Made by a program: the position numbers and the translations under genes. Positions 1 through 6,369 of a DNA stretch of 64,000 bases are shown piece by piece. Below the pieces are notes generated by a model, which made no database searches, was not told the origin of the DNA, and was given only the letters and a program-made list of their open reading frames with translations. The stretch comes from a bacterium 1xD42-67 (GTDB lineage Bacteria; Bacillota; Clostridia; Oscillospirales; Oscillospiraceae). The DNA is taken from the NCBI GenBank assembly GCA_003612335.1, contig RAYO01000004.1:1-64000 (forward strand), given 5' to 3'. The first letter of the stretch is position 1. Each line of letters begins with the position of its first letter.

Positions 1-312
1 TCGGGGGGCACGGCGGGGCGGATCTCCCTCCTGCAGGAGCTCGTTGAAATCGAAGTCCTGCTCCTGCTCTTCCTTCCAGGGAGATGCCGCCGCCTCTGAG
101 GCGGGCTCTGGCGGCGGAGCGGGACGGGCACGCGCCTGCCGCTCCCGCTGACGGGCCATACCGCTGGCCGCCTGATAGGCGGCGTGGAGGCGCTGGAAGC
201 CCTCCGGATCCTCCTCCGGGTGGGCGGTCTTCAGCCGTTCCGAATAGGCCCGGCGGACCTCAGACAAGCCGCAGGGCCCGGACAGGCCCAGCTGGCTCCA
301 GGGCCAGCTCAT
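1..312 (-). CDS. J-domain co-chaperone, 3' end cut by window edge
   Basis: Small J-domain-like protein, probably the dedicated partner of the adjacent HscC-type Hsp70. It starts at ATG 312-310 and runs off the left edge, so about 104 residues are visible. Residues 16-50 resemble helices II and III of a J domain (VRRAYSERLKTAHPEEDPEG, then FQRLHAAYQAA). The loop reads HPE at residues 31-33, not the canonical HPD, followed by an acidic, proline-rich linker. The ATG overlaps the Hsp70 stop codon by 4 bp (ATGA), so the two are translationally coupled. J proteins paired with HscC (DjlB/DjlC in E. coli) are often divergent, and the same relation is inferred here. The C-terminal part is not visible. 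Confidence 0.75.
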   Translation of the reverse strand, partial: MSWPWSQLGLSGPCGLSEVRRAYSERLKTAHPEEDPEGFQRLHAAYQAASGMARQRERQARARPAPPPEPASEAAASPWKEEQEQDFDFNELLQEGDPPRRAPR

Positions 313-2057
313 CCCTCCTCCTCCCCGCTGTCAGACAGGGGATCCAGGTCCTGGGGCGGCAGATCCCCCACCCCCAGATAGGCCTCCACCTGGTCGAAGA
401 ACGCTCCGGCCCGGCGGCTGGCCTTTGCCACCCGCATGGGCTCCTGGGCGGCGATCTCCCCTTGGAACCAGTCCAGCATCTCCCCCACCCGGTCCCGGAC
501 GCCCCCCACCGTCATGGCATAGAGACGCTGGGCCCGGGCGATGATGGCCCGAGGGCCCTCCTGGTCCCTGGGATGGAGCTTCAGCGCCTCCAGCTCCTTC
601 AGCCGGGCCTCCACCTCCTCCTCGGTCATGCCGGAGCCCTGGAGGACCAGCCGGGCGGACTGGCCGTCCTTCCCCGTCACGATCACCTCCAGCAGGCCGT
701 TGATGTCATAGGTGAAGCGGACCCGGATATACTGCTCCCCCCGGGGGGCCGGAGGGACCGCGATCTCCAGATGGCCCAGATAGGTGTTGTCCTGACAGTA
801 GCGCTGCTCTCCCTGGTATACCTTGACCTCGATGCTCCGCTGTCCGTCTCGGGCCGTGCCATAGGTCCCCTCTTTGCTGGAGGGGAGGACACTGTTGCGC
901 TCGATGATGGGGGACATCAGGTCTTTGGCCTGTTCTGCATGGTTCAGGGTGGCAATGCCCAAGGTAAAGGGGCACACATCGGTGAGGACCAGCTCCTTGA
1001 GATCCTTGGCCCGGACCTTCATGCCGGAACAGATCCCCGCTCCGATCGCGACCGCAGTGTCCGGCCGGGCCCCGGGGGCGGGCTCCCGGCCCAGGGCCTT
1101 GGCGATGTACCGCCGGACCGCCGGCATGTGGCTGGAGCCCCCCACCATCACCAGCTCGTCCAGCTCCTCCAGGCTCATCCCGGCATCCAGGAACACCTTG
1201 CGCACCGGGGCCAGCAGGCGCTGGAACAGGGCGCTGCTCTTGCGGATGACCCACTCGTGGGTCAGGGCCAGGGAGGCGGAGATCTCTCCGTCGTCCACCG
1301 CCATGATCACCGGCTCCCGAGCAGTGAGGGCCATCTTGCAGGTCTCGGCCTGGCGGACCAAGGTCTCCTGCCGCTGGCGGGACAGGGCGTCGAAGTCCAG
1401 ACCGCAGTCCTGGCAGAATCCCCGGGCGATCGTCTCATCGAAGTCCCGGCCCCCCAGATAGTTGTCTCCGCTGACGGCGGTGACGCTGACCACATCGTCG
1501 AACCGCTCCACCAGTGAGACGTCCAGAGTGCCGCCGCCAAAGTCGAAGACCAGGCACAGCTTGTCCTCCTCTCCCTCACCGATCCGGCCAGCCACCGCCG
1601 CGGCGGAGGGCTCGTTCACCAGCCGCTCCACCGTCAGCCCCGCCAGGGCCCCCGCCCGCTTGGTGGCGGCCCGCTGGGCCTCGGCGAAGTAGGCGGGGAC
1701 ACTGACCACCGCCTCATCCACCACTTCCCCCAGATAGGTCTCCGCGTCCTCCCGCAGGCGGCGCAGGATGAAGGAGGACAGATCCTCCGCCGTGAAAGAC
1801 TTCCCTCCCAGCTCATACTTCCGGGGGGTGCCCATGGCCCGCTTGAACCCTGCCGCTGTGCGCTCCGGATGGGAGATCAGCCGGTCCCTGGCCGCCGCCC
1901 CCACCAGGATGGAACCGTCCTCGTCCACACTGACCACGCTGGGGGTCAGATAGTCCCCCGACGCGTTGGGGATCAGCTCACACTTCCCATCGCGCCACAC
2001 CGCCGCCAGACTGTTGGTGGTCCCTAAGTCGATCCCGATGACAGCCATGTCCCTCAC
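309..2057 (-). CDS. hscC: HscC-like Hsp70 chaperone
   Basis: ATP-dependent cytoplasmic Hsp70 chaperone. The N-terminus carries the phosphate-1 motif GIDLGTTNS. Further actin-fold signatures are FDFGGGTLDVSLV (phosphate-2 region) and VMVGGSSHMP. The substrate-binding beta domain includes SVLPSSKEGTYGT. At about 580 residues it is shorter than DnaK (about 610-640) and close to HscC (about 556). The DnaK C-terminal lid tail is reduced, and no grpE or dnaJ flanks it. That, and the coupled J-domain gene, argue for a specialised HscC-type chaperone rather than the main DnaK. The frame opens at GTG 2057, with AAGGGG about 9 nt upstream. ATG 2048 (MAVIGIDL) is an equally plausible start, preceded by AGGTGAGG. 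Confidence 0.88.
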   Translation of the reverse strand: MRDMAVIGIDLGTTNSLAAVWRDGKCELIPNASGDYLTPSVVSVDEDGSILVGAAARDRLISHPERTAAGFKRAMGTPRKYELGGKSFTAEDLSSFILRRLREDAETYLGEVVDEAVVSVPAYFAEAQRAATKRAGALAGLTVERLVNEPSAAAVAGRIGEGEEDKLCLVFDFGGGTLDVSLVERFDDVVSVTAVSGDNYLGGRDFDETIARGFCQDCGLDFDALSRQRQETLVRQAETCKMALTAREPVIMAVDDGEISASLALTHEWVIRKSSALFQRLLAPVRKVFLDAGMSLEELDELVMVGGSSHMPAVRRYIAKALGREPAPGARPDTAVAIGAGICSGMKVRAKDLKELVLTDVCPFTLGIATLNHAEQAKDLMSPIIERNSVLPSSKEGTYGTARDGQRSIEVKVYQGEQRYCQDNTYLGHLEIAVPPAPRGEQYIRVRFTYDINGLLEVIVTGKDGQSARLVLQGSGMTEEEVEARLKELEALKLHPRDQEGPRAIIARAQRLYAMTVGGVRDRVGEMLDWFQGEIAAQEPMRVAKASRRAGAFFDQVEAYLGVGDLPPQDLDPLSDSGEEEG

Positions 2058-2235: not shown

Positions 2236-2263
2236 GCACACTTTCCCCGAAGGGACATAGGAT
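2236..2263 (+). promoter_or_regulatory. possible sigma-E promoter for spoVM
   Basis: GCACACT (2236-2242), 13-bp spacer, CATAGGAT (2256-2263). Five of seven and six of eight positions fit the Bacillus sigma-E consensus (KMATATT / CATACAMT). The match is weak, but it lies 46 bp before a gene that is sigma-E dependent in B. subtilis. Confidence 0.3.
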
Positions 2264-2309
2264 GGTACAGCCGGGAACGGCGAGATCTAAAGGGAGGGGA
2301 GGCGTTTTC

Positions 2310-2381
2310 ATGGGTATCGTGGTGGTACGTTCCCCCCGCTGCCTGCGGGGGCTGCTGCGCAGGATCTTCAAAGTGAGATAG
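2310..2381 (+). CDS. spoVM: SpoVM, stage V sporulation amphipathic peptide
   Basis: Encodes 23 residues: MGIVVVRSPRC then LRGLLRRIFKVR. This matches the clostridial SpoVM pattern (M-x-I-V-V-x-K/R-S-P-x-x-L-x-G-L/I-L-R-x-I-F), including the conserved Pro that breaks the helix and the basic/hydrophobic amphipathic C-terminal half. SpoVM senses the positive curvature of the outer forespore membrane and anchors SpoIVA there. A very strong Shine-Dalgarno run (AGGGAGGGGAGG, 2291-2302) sits 7 nt before ATG. The position fits: the coat-basement genes sipL and spoIVA follow within 2.6 kb on the same strand. It is too short for most gene finders. The alternative, a chance ORF, is unlikely given motif, ribosome site and neighbours. 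Confidence 0.88.
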   Translation: MGIVVVRSPRCLRGLLRRIFKVR

Positions 2382-2384
2382 GCG

Positions 2385-2413
2385 GCATACCGACAGGCTC
2401 CCTGGCATATAGT
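2385..2413 (+). promoter_or_regulatory. candidate sigma-E promoter for sipL
   Basis: GCATACC (2385-2391), 14-bp spacer, CATATAGT (2406-2413). Five of seven and six of eight positions fit the sigma-E consensus, with the same spacing as the stronger spoIVA promoter. It lies about 92 bp before the sipL start. Confidence 0.45.
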
Positions 2414-2505
2414 GTCAGCAAAGTGGAAGTCCTGAACGGACTTGTGCCTCTGTCCCCCAGACCAGGGGGCAGACCGACACTATGTATGACAAGGGAGAGG
2501 ACAGC

Positions 2506-4026
2506 ATGGAATTCGAACGTGATACCATCATCAGCTACGACACTGCGGCAGAGGTCACTTTGTGCCAGGAGGAGACTTTGGAGAGCATCGTGCCCGACGC
2601 CTGCCCCGACATCCTGCGCATCGTGGACGTCTGCGGCCAGGCCACCCTCAGCGGCAAGCAGGCTCGGGAGGGGTCGGCCCAGGTCACCGGGATGGTGCGG
2701 GCCTCCATCCTATACCAGCCTGAGGGGGGCGGCGGTCTGCGGAGGATGGAGGTGGGACTGCCCTTCACCTGTCAGGCGGAGGCCCCCGGGCTCACCGAAC
2801 GGGGGACGGTCCTGGCCCGTCCCCGGCTGCGCTGCGCCGAGGCCCGGGCCCTCAACCCCCGGAAGGTACTGCTGCGGGTGGACCTGGCGGTGGACATCAC
2901 CGCCTGCCAGCCAGTGGAACGGCCCATCTGCTGCGGCGTCACCGGTCCGGAGGGAGAGGGGATCTGCCAGCGGCAGTTCCAGGGGGAGCACTACCAGCTC
3001 AGCGCCGTACAGGAGAGACCCTTTACATTTTCTGACCGGGTGCGGCTCCAGACCAGCTCCGGCGAGGCCCCCATGCTCCTGGCCGCCCGAGCCCAACCGG
3101 AGTGCAGCGAGAGCAAGCTCATCGGCACCAAGCTGATCTTCAAGGGCATGGTGGAGCTCTCCTTCCTCCTTCAGGAGCCGGGCGGGGCCCTCACATCCAG
3201 CCGGGAATCCCTCCCTTTCTCCCAGATCCTGGAGGTCGCAGGGGCCGGTGAGGAGGGAGACTGTCAGGTAGAGGTGGAGGTGGTCTCTCTCCGGTGCGAG
3301 CCGGACACCGGGGACAGCCGGGAGCTGGATGTAGAGCTGGAGCTGCTGGCCCAGGCCCAGGTGCGCTGCCGCCGGCCGGTGACCCTCCTCCAGGACCTCT
3401 ACAGCACCAGCCATCTCATGGAGGTGGAGCGGGAGGATCAGCCTCTGTGCCGCCTGTCGGAGCAGATGGTGCGGCCTCAGACCGTCCGGGAGCTGCTGGA
3501 GACTGGAGAGATGGTCCGTTCTGTGGTGGATGCCCGGCTGGCCCTGGGCCAAGTGCGCCAGAGCCGGGAAGGCAGTGAGCTTGTCCTCGCGGTGGACGCC
3601 TGGCTCACCGTCCTTTACCTGGACGAGAACGAGCTGGTCCAATGTGTCCGCCAGTCCCTCCCCGTCGCCTGCCGCTTGGACTGTCCCGAATCGGTCCGGT
3701 GCTCCTGTTTCTGCACCTGTCCCGGGGAGGTCTTCGCCGCCCCCGCCGCAGGAGGGGTCGAGGTGCGGTCCACTGTGGAGTTCCACTGTCTGGCCACCCA
3801 GACCACCGCTCTCCCCTCAGTGTCCTCCGCCCAGCTTGGGGAGGCGCGGAGCGCTGGGGAGGGCCGGCGGCCCTCTGTGGTGCTGCGGATGCCCTCCCCC
3901 GGTGAGGAGCTCTGGGATATCGCCAAAGCCCACGGCACCACTATGGAACAGATCCTCCAGGCCAATGAGCTGGAAGAGGACGTCCTGCCTGTGGGCCGGA
4001 TGCTCCTCATCCCCAGTACGAGATGA
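2506..4026 (+). CDS. sipL: SipL-like spore coat morphogenetic protein (DUF3794 + LysM)
   Basis: 506-residue protein with DUF3794-type beta-rich modules over most of its length (about residues 10-440). A C-terminal LysM domain covers about 458-506 (SPGEELWDIAKAHGTTMEQI ... LPVGRMLLIPS). This is the architecture of C. difficile SipL, whose LysM domain binds SpoIVA to encase the forespore; it is the functional counterpart of Bacillus SpoVID. Neither signal peptide nor membrane segment is seen, as expected for a mother-cell cytoplasmic protein. ATG 2506 was chosen over an in-frame ATG at 2482 because AAGGGAGAGG (2491-2500) lies 5 nt before it. It follows spoVM by 124 bp and precedes spoIVA. Identity rests on architecture plus context. 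Confidence 0.87.
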   Translation: MEFERDTIISYDTAAEVTLCQEETLESIVPDACPDILRIVDVCGQATLSGKQAREGSAQVTGMVRASILYQPEGGGGLRRMEVGLPFTCQAEAPGLTERGTVLARPRLRCAEARALNPRKVLLRVDLAVDITACQPVERPICCGVTGPEGEGICQRQFQGEHYQLSAVQERPFTFSDRVRLQTSSGEAPMLLAARAQPECSESKLIGTKLIFKGMVELSFLLQEPGGALTSSRESLPFSQILEVAGAGEEGDCQVEVEVVSLRCEPDTGDSRELDVELELLAQAQVRCRRPVTLLQDLYSTSHLMEVEREDQPLCRLSEQMVRPQTVRELLETGEMVRSVVDARLALGQVRQSREGSELVLAVDAWLTVLYLDENELVQCVRQSLPVACRLDCPESVRCSCFCTCPGEVFAAPAAGGVEVRSTVEFHCLATQTTALPSVSSAQLGEARSAGEGRRPSVVLRMPSPGEELWDIAKAHGTTMEQILQANELEEDVLPVGRMLLIPSTR

Positions 4027-4030
4027 GACC

Positions 4031-4063
4031 AAGAGGCAGGCCCGGCCGGGCCTGCCTCTTTTT
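4031..4063 (+). terminator. intrinsic terminator after sipL
   Basis: Perfect 15-bp self-complementary arms (4031-4045 / 4046-4060) followed by a T run through 4063. Confidence 0.88.
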
Positions 4064-4074
4064 GCTGTCAGATA

Positions 4075-4224
4075 TCAGGTTTCCTGATCCTTTGCCTCTG
4101 CAATGGTGTCGATCAGATCGCACAATTCCTGGTTTGTGTAATCCTTTCCGCTCTTTTTGATCAGCCGGCGCAGTTCATAAAGAACAGCTTGTTGTGTGTC
4201 CTTGCGGTCCTTTTCGGTCCCCAT
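4075..4224 (-). CDS. small hypothetical protein, 49 residues
   Basis: Encodes 49 residues, starting MGTEKDRKDTQQAVLYELRR. It is hydrophilic and charged, probably helical (LYELRRLIKKSG, then NQELCDLIDTIAEA), with no signal peptide or membrane span. A good ribosome site (GCGGAGGTG, 8 nt before ATG) and its own consensus promoter (4273-4301) support expression. It is convergent with sipL, its stop lying just beyond the sipL terminator. I do not recognise the family. Its base composition is lower in GC than its neighbours. Confidence 0.65.
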   Translation of the reverse strand: MGTEKDRKDTQQAVLYELRRLIKKSGKDYTNQELCDLIDTIAEAKDQET

Positions 4225-4265
4225 GAATTTCACCTCCGCTGTTGTTCAGCTCCATTTACCTGTCT

Positions 4266-4721
4266 CTATATTATTATAGCATGGTTTTTACAGTGGCGCA
4301 AGGGGGAAATGAAAAGCGGCGGGGCGCCTTGCCACGGACCGTCATGTTCGATCTCGGCGCCGTGGACGAGGCCGTTGACAGGGGCGTAATAGCAGAACAC
4401 AGCGCCCCCATTGATCTGGTACTCCTTGACCATTGTCTGTCCGTTCTGGACCACCACCTCCTCAGTCAGTCTGAACATGGGGTGTATGACAAAAAAGCCG
4501 GCGAGCGGAGCAAGGAACATCACAGCCGTTAAAAGGAGCGCCGCACACATCCATAGGGGCGAATGTTCTTTGTCAAAGGAAATGCGGGTAAGACGGACAG
4601 CCGTCACCAGCATCAGCCCCATCAGGAGAAAGTCCATGGCGTACCGGGGCCCGCAGCGCCAGCACGGCCCCGCCGCCGGGGGAATGAGAGTAAGAATCAG
4701 CCGTTTGCGTTCGATACTCAT
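4266..4721 (-). CDS. small membrane protein, unknown function
   Basis: 151 residues from ATG 4721, with GGAGG (4734-4730) 8 nt upstream. Two hydrophobic stretches, about residues 30-46 (AMDFLLMGLMLVTAVRL) and 57-78 (PLWMCAALLLTAVMFLAPLA), suggest two membrane helices. They are followed by a roughly 70-residue soluble tail (MFRLTEEVVVQNGQTMVKEY...). The layout resembles many short two-helix DUF proteins of clostridia, but I cannot name a family. Its 3' end contains the promoter of the downstream 49-codon gene. It lies between sipL and spoIVA on the opposite strand. A role in sporulation is possible but rests only on position. Confidence 0.65.
   Translation of the reverse strand: MSIERKRLILTLIPPAAGPCWRCGPRYAMDFLLMGLMLVTAVRLTRISFDKEHSPLWMCAALLLTAVMFLAPLAGFFVIHPMFRLTEEVVVQNGQTMVKEYQINGGAVFCYYAPVNGLVHGAEIEHDGPWQGAPPLFISPLRHCKNHAIII
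4273..4301 (-). promoter_or_regulatory. sigma-A promoter for the 49-codon gene
   Basis: Leftward: -35 TTGCGC (4301-4296), 17-bp spacer, -10 TATAAT (4278-4273), about 50 bp before ATG 4224. It lies inside the 3' end of the membrane-protein gene. Confidence 0.65.
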
Positions 4722-4755
4722 AAAGTAAACCTCCATATCTCAATTATGTACCGTT

Positions 4756-4784
4756 ATTATACAGGAAAGCGCCCATAATCGAAA
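4756..4784 (-). promoter_or_regulatory. probable promoter of small membrane protein
   Basis: Leftward -10 TATAAT (4761-4756) with a poor -35 TTTCGA (4784-4779) at 17-bp spacing. It lies in an AT-rich intergenic stretch 35 bp before the start. Confidence 0.5.
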
Positions 4785-4820
4785 CTGTTTTTTGATTTTT
4801 GGATACTTTTTTAACTTTTG

Positions 4821-4849
4821 TTATATTGCATAGCTTATCCTCATAGATT
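4821..4849 (+). promoter_or_regulatory. sigma-E-type promoter of spoIVA
   Basis: TTATATT (4821-4827), 14-bp spacer, CATAGATT (4842-4849). Six of seven and seven of eight positions agree with the sigma-E consensus KMATATT / CATACAMT at the usual spacing. In B. subtilis spoIVA is transcribed by sigma-E in the mother cell, so the match is functionally consistent. Confidence 0.75.
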
Positions 4850-4890
4850 GTAAGGAAATACCGGCTCAAACAGCCGAAGGAGGAATCGCA

Positions 4891-6369
4891 GTGGAAGACC
4901 GCAAGATCTATGAGGATATCGCGCTCCGCACCGAGGGCGACATCTACATCGGCGTCGTGGGGCCGGTCCGGACAGGAAAATCCACCTTTATCAAGCGCTT
5001 CATGGAGACGCTGGTGATCCCCAACATCGACAACGTCTACCGCCGGGAGCGGGCCCGGGACGAGCTGCCCCAGAGCGGATCCGGCCGGACCATCATGACG
5101 GCAGAGCCCAAGTTCGTCCCTGAGGAGGCGGTGGCGGTGGCCGTAGAAGGCGGCGCCGCCTTCCAGATGCGGATGATCGACTGCGTGGGCTATATGGTGG
5201 ACGGGGCCATGGGCCAGCTGGAGGGGGAGACGGAACGGATGGTCACCACCCCCTGGTTCGACCATGAGATCCCCATGGCGGAAGCGGCGGAGATCGGCAC
5301 CCGGAAGGTGATCTCAGAGCACTCCACCATCGGCGTGGTGGTCACCACCGACGGCACCATCACCGACATCCCCCGGGAGGACTACTTAGAGGCGGAGGAG
5401 CGGGTGGTCTCTGAACTGAAGGAGCTGGGCAAACCCTTCGTGGTCCTCCTCAACTCCGCCAGCCCCAACTCCGACCGGGCCCGGGCCATCCGGGCCGACA
5501 TCGCCCAGCGGTATGACGTGACCTGTGTGGCGGCCAACTGCCTGGAGCTGGACCAGGAGGAGATCGATCACATCCTGAAGAGCGTCCTCTATGAGTTCCC
5601 GGTGAAGGAGCTGGACCTGTTCCTCCCCCCTTGGGTGGACGCCCTGCCCCAGGAGCACCCCATCCGCTCCGCCCTGTACACCGCCATCCGGGAGGGCACC
5701 GCCCAGCTCCACCGGGTCCGGGACGTGGACAGCGCCGTGTCTTCCTTCCGGGACTGCGAGGTGGTCAGCGACGCCCGGATCTCCGCCATCGATCTGGGCA
5801 CTGGGGTCTCCTCCGCCGCCCTGGAGCTGCCCAGGACCCTGTTCTACAACACGCTGTCCCAGCGATCCGGTTTCGATATCGAAGATGACGGAGATCTGAT
5901 GGCCCTGCTCACCGAGCTGGCCGGTGTGAAGAAAGCCTACGACAAGGTGTCCGACGCCCTCCAGCAGGTGGAGGAGACGGGCTACGGCATCGTGGTCCCC
6001 CCCATCGATTCCCTGGTGCTGGAGGAGCCGGAGATCATGAAGCAGGGAGGGCGGTACGGCGTGCGCCTCAAGGCCAGCGCCCCCTCCATCCACATGATTC
6101 GCGCCGATATCGAGACAGAGGTCTCCCCCATCGTAGGGGGAGAGAAGCAGAGCGAGGACATGATCCACTATCTCCTCCAGGAGTACGAGGGGGACTCCAG
6201 CCGGATCTGGGAGGCCAACATCTTTGGAAAATCCCTCCACGAGCTGGTGAACGAGGATCTGAACGCCAAGATCAAACGAATGCCTGACGACGCCCGGGCA
6301 AAGCTCCGGGAGACCCTCCAGCGCATCATCAACGAGGGCTCCGGCGGACTGATCTGCATCATCCTATAA
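4891..6369 (+). CDS. spoIVA: SpoIVA, spore coat basement ATPase
   Basis: 492 residues, the usual SpoIVA length. It is a cytoskeletal ATPase that polymerises irreversibly on the forespore surface and is the platform for coat assembly. The Walker A motif GPVRTGKST (residues 24-32) sits in the N-terminal GTPase-like domain. The long middle domain and the conserved C-terminal end (NEGSGGLICIIL) that contacts SpoVM are present. Translation starts at GTG 4891, with AAGGAGG 7 nt upstream. It carries its own sigma-E-like promoter. Its partners SpoVM (membrane anchor) and SipL (encasement) are encoded just upstream, so the basement-layer machinery is clustered here. Confidence 0.96.
   Translation: MEDRKIYEDIALRTEGDIYIGVVGPVRTGKSTFIKRFMETLVIPNIDNVYRRERARDELPQSGSGRTIMTAEPKFVPEEAVAVAVEGGAAFQMRMIDCVGYMVDGAMGQLEGETERMVTTPWFDHEIPMAEAAEIGTRKVISEHSTIGVVVTTDGTITDIPREDYLEAEERVVSELKELGKPFVVLLNSASPNSDRARAIRADIAQRYDVTCVAANCLELDQEEIDHILKSVLYEFPVKELDLFLPPWVDALPQEHPIRSALYTAIREGTAQLHRVRDVDSAVSSFRDCEVVSDARISAIDLGTGVSSAALELPRTLFYNTLSQRSGFDIEDDGDLMALLTELAGVKKAYDKVSDALQQVEETGYGIVVPPIDSLVLEEPEIMKQGGRYGVRLKASAPSIHMIRADIETEVSPIVGGEKQSEDMIHYLLQEYEGDSSRIWEANIFGKSLHELVNEDLNAKIKRMPDDARAKLRETLQRIINEGSGGLICIIL

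Follow-up and report, generated by a model that had tools for sequence, protein, structure and literature searches.

We examined a 64,000-nucleotide stretch of DNA (hereafter the window; positions 1 to 64,000 of contig RAYO01000004.1, assembly GCA_003612335.1) from bacterium 1xD42-67 of the Oscillospiraceae, in which a 23-codon open reading frame (ORF) lies beside sipL and close to spoIVA (Table 1). All three genes are on the forward strand and span 4.06 kb up to the end of spoIVA at 6369, confirming the original prediction of three coat partners within 4.1 kb on one strand. We read the short ORF as the spoVM gene of this genome, neighbouring sipL and spoIVA in a cluster of three transcription units, and assign this reading as a whole a probability of about 94%.

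Table 1 Features at and around the putative spoVM–sipL–spoIVA cluster of the window.
Feature	Position	Strand	Description
DnaK/Hsp70-like gene	309..2057	-	Divergent from spoVM
spoVM -10-like box	2256..2264	+	CATAGGATG; CATA[GT]nnT motif, 54 nt before the ATG
spoVM (very probable)	2310..2381	+	23 codons and stop, MGIVVVRSPRCLRGLLRRIFKVR; conservation, profile match, ribosome site
sipL sigma-E-like promoter	2385..2414	+	GCATACC, 14 nt, CATATAGTG
sipL	2506..4026	+	Three SPOCS stretches and C-terminal LysM; open from 2482
Intrinsic terminator after sipL	4031..4060	+	-27.7 kcal/mol, z -4.7
ORF	4075..4233	-	52 codons
ORF	4266..4736	-	156 codons
spoIVA sigma-E-like promoter	4821..4850	+	TTATATT, 14 nt, CATAGATTG
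spoIVA	4891..6369	+	GTG start; ATPase, middle and C-terminal domains

The short ORF runs from an ATG at 2310 to a TAG at 2379–2381 and encodes the peptide MGIVVVRSPRCLRGLLRRIFKVR. As had been predicted, it carries a good ribosome site, GGGAGGGGAGG, spaced 7 nt from the start codon; the likely start of sipL follows after 124 bp on the same strand. Conservation was assessed in 64 genomes of the genus, 60 of which yielded sipL (59 loci were read together and the 60th separately). The peptide frame is present in all 60, always in the sipL orientation and directly 5' of that gene, the peptide and SipL protein matches being 55–165 bp apart; the four other genomes, whose assemblies are 58–81% complete, gave neither. 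Among the 59 loci there are 33 distinct peptides, starting with ATG (57) or GTG (2), and GGAG or GAGG occurs no more than 22 bases 5' of every start. The all-pairs ratio of nonsynonymous to synonymous differences (pN/pS) is 0.30 in the peptide frame, compared with 1.12 and 3.04 in the shifted frames, and differences from the window sequence number 182, 95 and 386 at codon positions 1, 2 and 3; kinship inflates these measures, yet leaves the contrast between frames unaffected. This pattern indicates that the 23 codons encode a protein under purifying selection, and frame conservation with synonymous bias, named beforehand as the check on the prediction, was thus found. So short a frame (23 codons), in GC-rich sequence where mechanical ORFs abound, would suit a chance ORF, but conservation of the frame, its start and ribosome site and the in-frame selection across the genus contradict that explanation, which we rejected as having a negligible probability.

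At the residue level, V4, V5, P9, R13, L16 and F20 are invariant in the 59 genus peptides, and Pro9 is also kept in the 60th. The SP-x-x-L-x-G-[LI]-LR pattern put forward for the peptide holds across this set: besides P9, R13 and L16 (59 each), S8 is found in 56, L12 in 58, G14 in 57, L or I at position 15 in 54 and R17 in 55.

Its composition, profile matches and genomic place make the peptide, very probably, a SpoVM of divergent sequence. SpoVM proteins are shorter than 30 amino acids, cationic and amphipathic; the window peptide has 23 residues and a net charge of +7, and is amphipathic from residue 10 onward (hydrophobic moment 0.64 for residues 10–23; permutation p 0.034). A profile built from 15 sequences of relatives matched, weakly, a single entry among 177,635 PDB sequences at E ≤ 10, namely B. 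subtilis SpoVM (2MVH), which shares P9, L12, G14 and R17 with the window peptide in the aligned part. The NCBI model SpoVM_broad (NCBIfam NF033436) has a cut-off of 31 bits. Genes at this position score 31.1 bits in a genome of the genus (G033) and 33.0 in one of the family (G204), and a gene of the order (G118) scores 39.8; these three exceed the cut-off among nine valid rows scanned, one of which was the window peptide. Within the source genome (a 3.56-Mb draft, 98% complete) the ORF at 2310–2381 is the sole SpoVM_broad match at E ≤ 10 (E 1.32), leaving no sign of a spoVM elsewhere, which would have counted against the prediction. The SpoVM interpretation is therefore supported by the conservation of the frame together with the lack of a second match.

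The neighbourhood of spoVM in relatives also supports its identity. Close to half of the genus loci appear to have spoVM still in an ancestral place behind rsgA: 26/59 carry rsgA upstream in the same orientation, within 0.6 kb in 25 of those (1 kb or more of upstream sequence is present for 58 of the 59). Both genus loci checked further (G005 and G012) have prpC, prkC and rsgA upstream, in the order radical-SAM gene (rlmN in G012), prpC, prkC, rsgA, spoVM, sipL, spoIVA. Passages of PMC6449344 describe prpC-prkC-cpgA in B. subtilis with rpe and thiN as neighbours, CpgA being the RsgA protein there. Elsewhere in the order, G154 has a thiN-type (thiamin pyrophosphokinase) gene ahead of spoVM. We take B. 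subtilis spoVM to be placed after thiN, which would make prpC-prkC-rsgA part of the B. subtilis spoVM region; the gene order thus suggests that an ancestral-type neighbourhood, prpC-prkC-rsgA(-rpe-thiN)-spoVM, has been kept in relatives. PMC5607322 describes the nearness of spoVM to rpmB as conserved. Pfam scans of 20 ORFs beside unlinked spoVM genes gave RsgA twice, thiamin pyrophosphokinase once and otherwise assorted families or no match; rpmB was absent among these 20, the only ORFs searched for it. Where relatives have rsgA, the window has the DnaK/Hsp70-like gene, for which no match was found in 39 other genus regions compared (upstream flanks of 0.2–5.8 kb).

The two larger genes are readily assigned. 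The window SipL matches the Pfam SipL family with 78.4 bits in its three SPOCS stretches and LysM at its C terminus with 38.7 bits. Its frame, 506 to 514 codons long, probably begins at the ATG at 2506 rather than at the listed ORF start of 2482, because a Shine-Dalgarno sequence, AAGGGAGAGG, precedes the former. SpoIVA matches TIGR02836 over its full length (1–492 of 492) with 714.1 bits, above the threshold of 459.9. Neither of the two minus-strand ORFs separating sipL from spoIVA gave a convincing family match in Pfam or the NCBI models, and among 39 other genus regions a partial relative of one of them (37%) was seen in G009 only.

Promoter-like patterns were called with the sigma-E consensus. 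The full pattern occurs in 58/59 genus spoVM–sipL gaps (shuffled mean 0.7) and in 23 of 30 spoIVA upstream regions (shuffled mean 0.6), one of the latter (G018) being misplaced owing to a partial match. Upstream of spoVM, a CATA[GT]nnT box is present in 57/59 genus loci and makes mother-cell expression under sigma-E a candidate for this gene as well; an ATA-type -35 element with that box (ATA-N13..15-CATA) was found in 0/59, the window having CACAC at 2237–2241. A scan for sigma-70-type promoters was uninformative (2 found, 1.0 expected). Because sipL and spoIVA have their own sigma-E-like promoters and a terminator follows sipL, the three genes are, on this sequence evidence, probably separate transcription units. 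A single operon read from the spoVM promoter would suit their shared strand, the gap of less than 50 bp between sipL and spoIVA matches that many other members of the order show and the near absence of a gap in a few genus genomes (G011, G033 and G039). In the window, the strong terminator and two minus-strand ORFs intervene before spoIVA, and promoter-like patterns precede both sipL and spoIVA; we therefore rejected the operon as improbable. According to passages of PMC5607322, B. subtilis spoVM requires SpoIIID, and C. difficile expresses sipL and spoIVA 50- to 100-fold above spoVM; both the SpoIIID requirement and the low C. difficile level would be consistent with a spoVM promoter that is weaker or depends on an activator.

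Several observations weigh against reading the short ORF as spoVM with separately transcribed neighbours. The window peptide scores only 14.8 bits against SpoVM_broad (E 0.021) and gave no match in a Pfam scan. The loose SpoVM_broad search (E ≤ 10) also finds matches in 6 of 14 control genomes, mostly of non-spore-formers, so the whole-genome value of E 1.32 is not significant alone; the cut-off was exceeded in one of the 14. The match to 2MVH, although in register, is weak (E 0.2). Lys2, described as important for B. subtilis SpoVM in passages of PMC5607322, is replaced by Gly in 56/59 genus sequences, including the window (2313–2315), and the same passages report that C. difficile has only a mild need for SpoVM. 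The source genome has not kept the ancestral neighbourhood, since its rsgA is on another contig and the upstream neighbour of spoVM is the Hsp70-like gene. In the wider order, the sipL promoter pattern was found in 9 of 21 loci examined, with slightly looser spacing (shuffled mean 2.4).

A sub-threshold score would also be expected of a leader peptide or of a conserved regulatory stretch, translated or not, that precedes sipL and makes no coat protein, and the ORF does lie 124 bp 5' of sipL with no gene between. However, what is conserved is the peptide sequence, not the DNA; a separate promoter-like pattern for sipL follows the ORF in 58/59 loci; the same kind of peptide is encoded in other families by SpoVM genes away from or divergent from sipL; and the three rows above the cut-off belong to the same alignment. 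These points led us to reject a leader, which we consider very improbable, in favour of SpoVM. With 14.8 bits against a cut-off of 31, automated annotation probably overlooks this spoVM, as the original prediction had supposed; the score alone is compatible with that claim.

To place the cluster in a wider context, we sampled 147 evenly drawn genomes of the order, each at least 90% complete, and counted SpoVM at E ≤ 1e-3 using a profile started from the window peptide. SpoVM was found in 102 genomes, of which 97 also have SipL, and in 41 of these 97 spoVM lies within 1 kb of sipL. The 41 adjacent cases comprise 31 on the same strand, all with spoVM upstream, and 10 divergent, and come from 9 of the 21 families having both genes. 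The linkage counts exclude weak matches (E > 1e-3), with which 44/106 are adjacent, and cases on another contig were scored as unlinked, a few of which may reflect broken assemblies. Genes for SipL and SpoIVA lie within 1 kb on one strand in 62/125 genomes, and all three genes are together in 28/94, from five families. Nearly all of 40 SpoVM loci read in the order showed a clear SpoVM with a ribosome site, with one weaker match (G109) doubtful. The arrangement is thus patchy, kept in several but not all families: the predicted three-gene cluster is real in the source genome, but is not peculiar to it. In these families sipL, often followed by spoIVA, stands directly behind spoVM, so that the three basement-layer genes form one neighbourhood. 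Outside the order, 122 genomes of the class were sampled; 50 have both genes at E ≤ 1e-3, and in 0/50 is spoVM within 15 kb of sipL. At a looser E ≤ 0.05, 62 have both, with two weak cases (G256 and G329) within 15 kb.

The distance to spoIVA varies within the genus. Of the 40 loci that have flanks, 23 show a spoIVA start no more than 2 kb from spoVM and 7, including the window, have it at 2.6–5.1 kb; in 8 the gene was not found over 7 kb or more downstream, and for 2 the contig was too short. It is therefore nearer to spoVM than in the window in 23 of the 38 loci with enough flank. A scan of 44 named loci for SpoVM near sipL gave 10 with at least 14 bits, every one of them upstream of sipL and in its orientation; for some, the distance was measured from a partial SipL match (best background score 10.1, L097). 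The Lachnospiraceae-labelled loci showed no convincing SpoVM within the available flanks, so in these it has either diverged too far or lies elsewhere. Genomes with SipL and SpoIVA and no clear SpoVM include G094, G146, G157 and G188 of family f1 and most of those sampled from f15. There was no match in G188 and weak matches (E > 0.2) or none in the others; SpoVM has either been lost from these genomes or become too divergent.

We mapped linkage onto a SpoIVA tree, built quickly from 81 genomes of the order, whose labels include some weak SpoVM matches (for example, G109, G187 and G115) and score three genomes at 1–15 kb as linked. The linked/unlinked label requires at least 12 changes, compared with a shuffled mean of 27, which shows that it clusters by descent, without showing the direction of change. 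The scattered pattern fits best an old linkage that was broken up repeatedly, although counts do not distinguish gain from loss. That indistinctness, the 12 changes themselves and the divergent orientation in families f5 and f17 and part of f6 leave some room for adjacency having arisen several times independently. We regard such convergent placement as rather unlikely, given that spoVM is upstream in 31/31 same-strand cases, for which a shared origin is simpler, and that linked rows sit in deep, separate parts of the tree.

Pro9 is the only completely conserved SpoVM residue reported in the Fig. 1 legend of PMC5607322, and passages of that paper and of PMC4307972 describe mislocalization of B. 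subtilis SpoVM by P9A. SpoVM-like peptides in which S, T, H or K replaces Pro9 occur in 7 of 12 sampled genomes of family f21 (loci L181 (G084), L292 (G141), L182 (G201), L187 (G151), L291 (G115), L290 (G173) and L296 (G128), the last scoring only 22 bits), and in four of them Gly follows the replacement. G163, in the same SpoIVA clade, retains Pro9. A further Pro9-less candidate, picked by eye in Scatolibacter rhodanostii (L100:4644-4727), scores 10.1, equal to the best background (L097).

If the proteins act as their counterparts do in B. subtilis and C. difficile, the mother cell would produce the SpoVM peptide early in sporulation; lying as a kinked, cationic and amphipathic helix in the outer membrane of the forespore, the peptide would mark the curved surface for SpoIVA. 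SpoIVA would polymerize at the marked surface and bind SipL, which would then bring in the coat; curvature sensing, SpoIVA recruitment and encasement by SipL are roles that the window proteins may share with those described in the literature on these two species. Like B. subtilis SpoVM (2MVH; NF033436/NF011327), the window peptide is very short, has P9, L12, G14 and R17 and, in relatives, an rsgA-type neighbourhood; it differs in having 23 rather than 26 residues, Gly2 rather than Lys2, Val6 rather than Ile6 and Leu15 rather than Ile15, and in having sipL and spoIVA next door. SpoIVA differs from known members of its family only in genomic place. C. difficile SipL contains SPOCS stretches. It also shares the C-terminal LysM (in passages of PMC5607322), whereas the window sipL adjoins spoVM and is near spoIVA. 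C. difficile SpoVM is likewise clostridial and acts with SpoIVA, and the same passages report its control by sigma-E; its gene is cotranscribed behind CD25622, near rpmB, whereas the window spoVM precedes sipL.

SpoVM, SipL and SpoIVA themselves are already known, as are their misses in annotation: passages of Galperin et al. 2012 (PMC3533761) note that SpoVM is rarely recognized and leave open the existence of distant SpoVMs in clostridia in which none was detected. We found no literature on SpoVM with Oscillospir- or Ruminococcaceae and no published report of a spoVM–sipL–spoIVA cluster in a search whose coverage ended short of subscription journals. Papers naming all three proteins mostly concern C. 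difficile, the rest dealing with B. subtilis, C. sporogenes, Moorella or spores generally. The window thus apparently holds a new divergent SpoVM in an undescribed arrangement that is patchy over the order. The profile from its peptide, finding SpoVM in 102/147 genomes of the order, directs annotation to the positions behind rsgA and before sipL, and the survey supplies natural variants (Pro9-less and Gly2) of a model curvature-sensing peptide. We offer as a speculation that the landmark peptide, the polymerizing ATPase and the encasement factor are an old selected module grown onto a prkC-rsgA-spoVM locus, with SpoVM being core here, unlike its near-dispensable counterpart in C. difficile, and with one subclade having replaced Pro9. 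If so, that subclade must sense the forespore in another way.

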